Shown here: piece by piece, positions 7,365-63,040 of the stretch
Numbering within the stretch: the first letter of the stretch is position 1
Layout: each line of letters opens with the position of its first letter
Origin: Halobellus inordinatus
Lineage (GTDB): Archaea; Halobacteriota; Halobacteria; Halobacteriales; Haloferacaceae
DNA length: 64,000 nt
Direction of reading: 5' to 3'
Assembly (NCBI RefSeq): GCF_024464655.1
Contig: NZ_JANHAV010000001.1
Span: forward strand, 558,001 to 622,000
Position numbers and translations under genes: made by a program
The notes under the pieces: model-generated
Database searches by the model: none
What the model was told of the DNA's origin: nothing
What the model saw: the letters and a program-made list of their open reading frames with translations, nothing else

Positions 7365-7490
7365 ATGCGAATGTCAAGCAAGGTGCTGCTCGCCGGCGTA
7401 TTGGTGTTCGTGATTCCGCTTCCCGGAACGTTCCTCCTCGGCGGCCTCGTCGTCGCGCTCGGTGGAGGCCTTCGGTTGCTCGGCGAGTAA
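7365..7490 (+). CDS. 41-residue hydrophobic membrane protein
   Basis: ATG 7365 (or ATG 7371, two codons later) opens a frame ending at TAA 7488-7490. After a short MRMSSK start the product is almost entirely hydrophobic, with two short helices around an IPLPGTF turn, and ends in RLLGE. Small proteins with this proline-turn pattern are common in haloarchaea, but their function is unknown. An AATAAT box lies just upstream. The stop codon is followed directly by palindromic element A. The composition and clean reading frame make it more likely real than not. Confidence 0.55.
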   Translation: MRMSSKVLLAGVLVFVIPLPGTFLLGGLVVALGGGLRLLGE

Positions 7491-7569
7491 TACTGTCGGA
7501 CAGAAGTTCGTGAATCATGTTGGCACCCACGAGGTGCCGATACTTTTCACATCGTTCTGTCCGACAGTA
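7491..7569. repeat. Palindromic element A, copy 1 (MITE-like)
   Basis: About 79 bases with perfect terminal inverted repeats CTGTCGGACAGAA / TTCTGTCCGACAG, flanked by TA on both sides. A second inner palindrome, GGCACC-N5-GGTGCC, sits at the centre, so the whole unit can fold on itself. It starts on the base after the TAA of the mini-gene at 7365-7490. Two further copies occur at 30281 and 38573. No coding capacity. It could be a non-autonomous transposon, a 3'-end stem-loop, or both. Confidence 0.8.
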
Positions 7570-7571
7570 TA

Positions 7572-7651
7572 ATAGGGATTATCGTAACTGTTCGGAGATT
7601 CTCGCCGTACTGTCCGGCGAGAGATCTATGAGGACGTACGATAATCCCTAT
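7572..7651. repeat. Palindromic element C abutting element A
   Basis: An 80-base unit bounded by perfect 15-base inverted repeats, ATAGGGATTATCGTA and TACGATAATCCCTAT. An inner hairpin CTCGCCG-N7-CGGCGAG lies near its middle. It begins two bases after element A and ends about 70 bases before the lhr start. I found no second copy in this window. Its structure is that of a non-autonomous inverted-repeat element, unrelated in terminal sequence to families A and B. Confidence 0.65.
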
Positions 7652-7722
7652 AAGCAGTTCTCACCTGGGCGGCTCGGCGTCCGAACGCTGCCCTTAATCC
7701 GGTCGCGCCGGTAGTGAACGCG

Positions 7723-29956: not shown

Positions 29957-30280
29957 ATGGAGTTCTGCGACGAATGCGGCTCGATGATGAAGACCGAGGA
30001 CGACGTCTGGGTCTGCGGAAACTGCGGGTACGAGAAACCCCGCGATACGGCCGACGAAGAGCATATGACCTCGACGGCCGCCCGCGAGGAGAGCGAGGTG
30101 GTCGATATGTCCGACGTCGACGACGCGGAGATCGGACCGACGACGACGGTCATCTGTCCGGAGTGTGGGAACGACCGCGCGCGCTATGAGATGAAGCAGA
30201 TCCGTTCGGCCGACGAATCCGAGACCCGGTTCTTCACCTGTACCGAGTGCGGCCACAAGTGGCGCGAAGACGACCACTGA
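29957..30280 (+). CDS. tfs: Transcription factor S (TFS), RNA cleavage factor of RNA polymerase
   Basis: Stimulates RNA cleavage by paused archaeal RNA polymerase, like TFIIS. The 107 residues have an N-terminal zinc ribbon (Cys4, Cys7, Cys20, Cys23) and a C-terminal TFIIS ribbon, with CPECGNDRARYEMKQIRSADE and CTECGHKW. The two catalytic acidic residues of the hairpin are in SADESET. The gene ends at TGA 30278-30280 and is followed at the next base by palindromic element A copy 2. Confidence 0.95.
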   Translation: MEFCDECGSMMKTEDDVWVCGNCGYEKPRDTADEEHMTSTAAREESEVVDMSDVDDAEIGPTTTVICPECGNDRARYEMKQIRSADESETRFFTCTECGHKWREDDH

Positions 30281-30442
30281 TACTGTCGGACAGCAGTTCG
30301 TGAATTATAGTAGCGTTTGCAAGTCTTCACTCACCGAATCGCACGCTGTCGTGCGATTAGGCTGTGTAATCAGTTGCAAACGCTACTATATATTGGCACC
30401 CACGGGGTGCCGCTGATTTTCACATCGTTCTATCCGACAGTA
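30281..30442. repeat. Palindromic element A, copy 2, interrupted by element B
   Basis: Element A ends are at 30283 (CTGTCGGACAG) and 30440 (with one change, CTATCCGACAG), flanked by TA on both sides. The inner GGCACC-N5-GGTGCC palindrome survives. Element B is inserted at 30308-30388. Removing B and one TA leaves exactly the length of copy 1. The element starts on the base after the tfs stop codon. Confidence 0.85.
30308..30388 (+). repeat. Palindromic element B, copy 1 (nested in A)
   Basis: An 81-base element with perfect 15-base terminal inverted repeats, TAGTAGCGTTTGCAA / TTGCAAACGCTACTA. It is flanked by TA on each side as a target-site duplication. An inner hairpin AATCGCAC / GTGCGATT lies at its centre. 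It is nearly identical, in opposite orientation, to the copy at 60926. It has no coding capacity. TA duplication is typical of IS630/Tc1-mariner-like transposases, but no such transposase is in this window. Confidence 0.85.
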
Positions 30443-30587
30443 TGAGCCGTCGCTGTCGCATCGTTCGCATACTACGGCGGTTTTTCCGGTGACGCGGCCC
30501 CCACCGAGTGAATATGCCGTCTTCGCTGTGACCCCTCGACCCCGCCCGTCGCTGCGAATTAAGTCGGTGGCCCCCAAACGAGTGTCC

Positions 30588-38572: not shown

Positions 38573-38651
38573 CACTGTCAGACAGCAGTTCGTGAATCAC
38601 GTTGGCACTCACGGAGTGCCAATGGTCTTCACACCGTTCTGTCCGACAGTA
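38573..38651. repeat. Palindromic element A, copy 3 (degenerate left end)
   Basis: The unit runs from CTGTCAGACAG (one change) to CTGTCCGACAG, with an inner palindrome GGCACTCACGGAGTGCC. Left and right flanks are CA and TA. It lies between the zinc-ribbon gene and the regulator gene, 32 bases before the latter's stop codon. It shares GTTCGTGAATCA and TTCACA-CGTTCT with copies 1 and 2, so it is a true family member rather than a chance hairpin. Confidence 0.75.
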
Positions 38652-60573: not shown

Positions 60574-61082
60574 CGTCGGATATGGTATGTAGATGGAATG
60601 TAAATTTTGTTTCTTTGACGGTTCACTCGATACCGTGCGATTCCGGTTCGGGGGTGTGACTGCAGAGCCTGAACATCGGCGTATGATTTTTATTATGGTT
60701 GGTCCTCTCGCTGACTGCGGGCTTTGCCCGCTACCCAACCCACTACCGAGTCTCCGTCGCACCGCGGGCAGTCCCCATTTCCCGCGGTGTTTTCGCTCAC
60801 AAGCGCCCAACAGTAGCAAGTGCTGTCATCTGTTCAGAACCCGAAGCTCGCCACGCCAAAGACAGCGGACAACGGGGAAGCGGATCGCTCGATGTTCCAC
60901 TCTATCCTGGATCAGTTCGAGAATATAGTAGCGTTTGCAACTGATTACACAGCCAATCGCACGACTGCGTGCGATTCGGTGCGTGAAGACTTGCAAACGC
61001 TACTATAGCCATCTTCAGTCCGGACGTGTAACATGCACCATTCCCCAAAACGGGTTTCACACACCCCACGCATCCACTACGT
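60574..61082. other. Intergenic region between the zinc protein and RidA
   Basis: About 500 bases without a convincing gene. It contains an AT-rich piece (60598-60612 and 60684-60697), element B copy 2 at 60926-61005, and a TTTCACAC stretch near RidA. A frame at 60820-60923 (SMFHSILDQFENI) runs into element B and picks up its stop; it may be a gene remnant. No known RNA gene is recognised. Confidence 0.55.
60926..61005 (-). repeat. Palindromic element B, copy 2
   Basis: Bounded by TAGTAGCGTTTGCAA and TTGCAAACGCTACTA with TA on each side. Compared in reverse orientation with the copy at 30308 it differs at only about four positions in 81. It includes the inner AATCGCAC / GTGCGATT hairpin. Confidence 0.85.
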
Positions 61083-62653: not shown

Positions 62654-63040
62654 TCACTGTACTGATATTAATAATACACCGGAGAGGTCGGCCTTTTGAA
62701 GATGGGCATCAGAAAGGTCGGCACTCAAGAGGTCGGCGCCTGCGAGGTTAACACCGTGAAGCGGAGTGGGGAAGTCAACAGCAAAAAGATTAGCGTCACT
62801 GAGGTCAGCTTGGTTGAGATTGCTTCCAGAGAGGTCAGCTGCTCTGAGGTCGCCTTTGCTGAAGTTGGCCTTGACGAGCCTCGCGTTGGTGAGGTCTGCA
62901 TTGGTAAGGTCCACATTGGAAAGGTCTGCATTTGAGAGGTCTGCATTGGTAAGATCCGCATCGGTGAGATCAGCACCTGGATTAATGTCCTCAGGTGTTA
63001 CGTCAGAATCGTGAGGGATTTCATACTTCGAGTCAGCCAT
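62654..63040 (-). CDS. Pentapeptide-repeat protein
   Basis: The 128 residues contain about 18 copies of the A(D/N)LxX repeat (ADLTDADLTNADLSN and so on) from residue 24 to the end, forming a right-handed quadrilateral beta helix. The start MADSKYEIPHDSDVT precedes the repeats. Such proteins can mimic DNA (Qnr, MfpA) or act as scaffolds; the function here is unknown. DNA in the repeat zone is visibly periodic (GAGGTCnGC-like 15-base units), but this follows from the coding repeat. Lower G+C than the core genes. Confidence 0.85.
   Translation of the reverse strand: MADSKYEIPHDSDVTPEDINPGADLTDADLTNADLSNADLSNVDLTNADLTNARLVKANFSKGDLRAADLSGSNLNQADLSDANLFAVDFPTPLHGVNLAGADLLSADLSDAHLQKADLSGVLLISVQ

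Follow-up and report, generated by a model that had tools for sequence, protein, structure and literature searches.

Downstream of the transcription factor S gene (tfs) of Halobellus inordinatus, one short palindromic element (B) lies nested inside another (A), and together with a third family (C) these elements are very probably DNA transposons of the non-autonomous, MITE-like sort, each about 80 bp long and without coding capacity, that were moved in trans, A before B at tfs. Their inverted ends, target duplications, copy number, empty orthologous site and reciprocal nesting were observed directly. All three families are new and belong to a known, MITE-like kind; the bias toward stop codons is unexpected. 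The window referred to below is the whole stretch of 64,000 nucleotides that was analysed (contig NZ_JANHAV010000001.1, positions 558,001 to 622,000), and positions are counted from its first nucleotide.

The nested insertion at tfs

The locus is composed of the following features.

29957-30280, + strand: ORF of tfs (transcription factor S), stop codon TGA at 30278-30280
30278-30280: left TGA of the A target duplication, which is the tfs stop codon
30281-30307: element A copy 2, left part, ending in the left TA duplication of B (30306-30307)
30308-30388: element B, 81 bp, perfect 15-bp terminal inverted repeats, long hairpin (z = -7.7)
30389-30390: right TA of the B target duplication
30391-30442: element A copy 2, right part
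30443-30445: right TGA of the A target duplication

As a whole, A copy 2 spans 30281-30442, reads TACTG...CAGTA at its boundaries and encloses B, whose perfect 15-bp inverted ends are TAGTAGCGTTTGCAA and which has a TA immediately to either side (30306-30307 and 30389-30390). The original prediction had described nested palindromes with an exact TA duplication, and B as an 81-base element at 30308-30388 with perfect 15-base ends; the sequence bears out both statements. When 83 nt (B plus one TA) were excised in silico, A copy 2 was restored to 81 nt by its ATACTG...CAGTAT boundaries, the same length as the copy at 7490-7570, to which it aligns ungapped with 90% identity and 8 mismatches (E 1e-27). 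Because the left TGA duplication of A is the stop codon of tfs, the tfs reading frame is intact.

Both junctions of B read TATA, and the flanks alone therefore fit either a 2-bp TA duplication around an 81-bp element or a 4-bp TATA duplication around a 77-bp element. The net gain separates the two: given that A is 81 nt long like its sister copies, the insertion added 83 nt rather than 81 nt, and the duplication is thus the 2-bp TA. An insertion of B into C at locus L013 agrees with this length. The nested structure is also not a product of chance, since the genome contains 184 matches to the A end and 112 to the B end, against 5 for the reversed control of each, and none of 100 shuffles of the window reached the observed end counts.

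Three families of small elements

The host genome is a 3.41-Mb draft in 23 contigs and holds at least 40 full or near-full copies of each family, the census being one of sampled copies (40 candidates scored per family) whose copy numbers are lower bounds. The elements are non-coding, 78-81 bp long and bounded by inverted ends of 13-15 bp; B is mostly 80 bp, A is 81 bp (79 bp when delimited by TACTG...CAGTA) and C is 78 bp. Each family folds as one long, strong hairpin (z about -7). Three of the features by which MITEs are recognised were found, namely a short non-coding inverted-repeat form, target duplication, and dispersed copies that are present or absent among relatives. Further copies in the window are these.

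7491-7569: element A copy 1, intact, flanked by TAA at 7488-7490 and TAA at 7570-7572
7573-7650: element C (the third family), between TAA at 7570-7572 and TAA at 7651-7653
38573-38651: element A copy 3, decayed, 86% identity to copy 1, duplication no longer exact
60926-61005, - strand: second copy of element B, TA on both sides

The stretch at 7488-7653 reads TAA[A]TAA[C]TAA, a tandem in which C was inserted in the target duplication of A, so that two unrelated elements share one stop codon; the leftmost TAA (7488-7490) terminates a 41-codon ORF at 7365-7490. The window also contains a 15-base tandem repeat of 5.3 copies at 62886-62965.

Beyond this genome the exact B end is patchily distributed, occurring in 23 of 148 genomes of the family and in 5 of its 28 genera, and B is present on plasmids of Haloferax, Halorubrum and Haloplanus. 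The plasmid pHME505 of Haloferax mediterranei has 24 B-like places, and a small helix-turn-helix regulator gene lies there between two B copies (locus L114, 3001-4285). For C, the plasmid records gave one weak match, and no B was found in phage records.

Nesting recurs at other loci, with exact duplications, and in more than one order. B lies in C at L013 and L004, and A lies in C at L058. At L063, L077 and L080 it is C that lies in B, each time at the TCAG/CTGA site of B but in both orientations relative to it, and L603 and L609 have a similar arrangement; C occupies this site in at least four loci, some of which could instead reflect the spread of a B::C composite. A triple nest of A, B and C, in which B lies in A and C in B, occupies L609 1460-1720 (contig C19 of genome G000, about 130.7 kb) with TGA and TA duplications, and in another genus of the family (L091) an A-like element sits in B with a TGA duplication. 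An insert of approximately 130 bp, belonging to neither A nor C, interrupts a further B copy (L075 185-397; contig C18 of G000, about 113 kb). Since the nesting is reciprocal, it gives relative ages at individual sites but no order of age among the families. Thus, the proposal that A is older than B stands for the tfs site, where B lies in A, but does not extend to the families. Such nested assemblies are documented elsewhere: 192 events of small elements inserted in other mobile elements are described in Haloquadratum walsbyi (PMC3119063), and the pneumococcal BOX, RUP and SPRITE elements also insert into one another (PMC10969869).

Target duplications and a proposed mechanism

TA duplication was found in 24 of 30 sampled B copies which, with the net gain of 83 nt at tfs, upholds the earlier claim that B duplicates TA. 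The preceding base is C in 21 of the 30 and the following base is G in 21, so that the target is CTAG-like. A duplicates 3 bp (TNA) and not TA, a difference absent from the original prediction: identical TNA duplications flank 28 of 30 copies in a first sample and 45 of 48 in an enlarged one. C has identical 3-bp duplications in 25 of 30 copies of the first sample and TNA in 33 of 40 of the enlarged sample, and the TNA duplications of A and C are all TCA, TGA or TAA. Because their duplications are of 3 bp, A and C would require an enzyme specificity other than that of B. When the sites were rejoined, the insertions proved to avoid coding DNA (B 0 of 24, A 2 of 45, C 2 of 35), compared with 74% of random positions.

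These patterns suggest a model in which a putative transposase acting in trans would recognise the 13-15-bp inverted ends and make a staggered cut in the target, 3 bp wide for A and C (TNA, with a preference for CTNAG) or 2 bp wide for B (TA, with a preference for CTAG). Repair of the gaps would then duplicate the staggered bases. At tfs, A would have inserted on the stop codon TGA, with the duplication restoring the stop, and B would later have inserted at a TA within A and duplicated that TA. The transposition would probably be cut-and-paste by DDE enzymes, with separate specificities for B and for A and C.

Search for the parent transposon

The original prediction had assigned B to the IS630/mariner type, and B may indeed be a MITE of an IS630/Tc1-mariner-type insertion sequence, a real possibility that falls somewhat short of an even chance. 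TA duplication at a CTAG target is typical of IS630, and both the 24 of 30 duplications and the preferred target of B fit this pattern; the host genome itself contains two matches to the IS630-type transposase domain DDE_3. However, TA is duplicated by the IS427 group of IS5 as well, and none of the 21 DDE_3 matches listed in 17 Halobellus genomes has B-like ends. The full-length insertion sequence with the ends of B that was sought was found neither among the fetched loci of these 17 genomes nor in an exact-end scan (18-base pattern) of 84,980 species genomes, which yielded no element of IS length. The assignment is thus possible for B but unproven, and A and C would call for another specificity.

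The other transposase domains gave a similar result. The 30 DDE_Tnp_1 loci compared from the 17 Halobellus genomes have no ends like those of A, B or C, DDE_Tnp_4 had no match in these genomes, and the transposase loci that were fetched showed other inverted ends; a parent could share fewer end bases than these searches demanded. Haloarchaeal matches in the 18-base scan were MITE-sized pairs, solo ends or elements cut by contig edges, while scattered matches outside the haloarchaea look like chance. Exact 14-15-mers of the ends gave only chance-like single matches in IMG/VR, and two 29-nt matches of A within IS110 genes (E 0.6) were likewise taken as chance.

The stop-codon bias and possible functions of the hairpins

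It is extremely improbable that the nested structure is fixed and non-mobile, serving as a structural or RNA element. The strong folding of the hairpins would suit such an element, as would partial covariation in the B alignment, where the paired positions 8/73 are GC in 36 and AT in 9 copies (with a subfamily that has A for G at position 8 and the corresponding change at the opposite end) and the paired positions 30/51 are GC in 25 and AT in 19. Such paired change could mean selection on the hairpin, but subfamily founders or arm-to-arm conversion would explain it as well. An Rfam search matched no family; a single miRNA hairpin below the threshold (E 0.14) was rejected as chance. The distribution among relatives refutes a fixed element. 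In the closest relative (G122, TFS 97% identical) an unrelated sequence directly follows the tfs stop codon, and the orthologous site is therefore empty; the sequence at this site is unrelated in other relatives too. This comparison of orthologous tfs loci, together with the target duplications and the at least 40 copies per family, supports the earlier view that both A and B have been mobile. For the second B copy of the window, five relatives showed no B next to the matched segment, the region having diverged too far for an exact empty site to be delimited. The exactness of the target duplications also argues against a fixed element. Directly after the tfs stop codon of another relative (G068, locus L528) there is a possible decayed remnant of TACTGTCA.

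The insertion of A at tfs duplicated the stop codon TGA, and the same relation holds for many other copies. The duplicated triplet serves as stop codon for a neighbouring coding ORF in 20 of 45 copies of A and in 13 of 35 of C, together 33 of 80 sampled copies (41%), against 14 of 88 non-coding CTNAG sites (16%; Fisher p = 3e-4) and 25 of 293 YTNAR sites (9%; p = 7e-11). Coding ORFs were called by codon usage, modelled on the window itself, and the control sites are a sample drawn from the window and from the sequences flanking these loci; the test set includes the first copies, from which the hypothesis was drawn, and this slightly favours it. All 10 sampled host ORFs have Pfam domains, including Thi4, dihydroorotate dehydrogenase, TatA and PadR. 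In another relative (G079, locus L531) an unrelated palindrome, D, with the sequence TACTGATTACTCTC...GAGAGTATTCAGTA (TACTG...CAGTA), lies on the tfs stop codon with a TGA duplication.

These observations, and the strong hairpins of A, B and C, lend some credit to a reading in which the elements, though mobile, are under selection as signals of the 3' end (a terminator or mRNA hairpin), the TNA-type elements being steered to or kept at stop codons. We regard this as unlikely. Target preference combined with selection against coding insertions could yield much of the excess, and the stop-codon test is inapplicable to B, with its 2-bp TA duplication. Since insertions on stop codons leave the protein unchanged, target preference plus selection is the simplest reading, rather than active steering. 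A broader conjecture appears a little less likely still. It holds that haloarchaeal TNA-duplicating palindromes (A, C and their relatives) are guided to stop codons, or kept once there, and spread as terminators or as signals at mRNA ends; if it were true, the 3-bp duplication would restore TGA or TAA and the element would be a ready-made 3'-end hairpin for the gene.

Relation to known elements and significance

TA-duplicating bacterial MITEs include RUP of pneumococcus and Correia/NEMIS of Neisseria. B resembles them in its short palindromic form, TA duplication, intergenic site and high copy number, whereas A and C differ from them in duplicating 3 bp; for none of A, B and C was a parent transposase with matching ends found here. 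A 3-bp TNA duplication is made by IS5/IS1031 and PIF/Harbinger-type elements, and A and C resemble them in this respect. Nevertheless, the ends of A and C start with TACTG or TAGGG, unlike the GG/GA of IS5, and the genus lacks a DDE_Tnp_4 match. Closer in host are the SMRs and MITEs of Haloquadratum walsbyi, which are 80-110 bp long with inverted ends and tens of copies, the SMRs being without a recognised parent transposon (PMC3119063). The SMRs share with A, B and C the haloarchaeal host, small size, inverted ends, tens of copies and insertion into other mobile elements (PMC3119063). SMR-A, compared here by its description, is reported without a target duplication (PMC3119063), whereas A, B and C make duplications of 3 or 2 bp.

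The nested pair at tfs cleanly records two natural transposition events and settles the otherwise ambiguous duplication length of B. Three unrelated families of near-equal size, each with at least 40 copies, share one genome without a recognisable engine, and they offer a concrete case of the question how haloarchaeal small mobile repeats that lack a parent are moved. The missing engine and the stop-codon bias are the parts worth following, and the latter suggests a simple route by which a transposon can insert at the ends of genes without damage.
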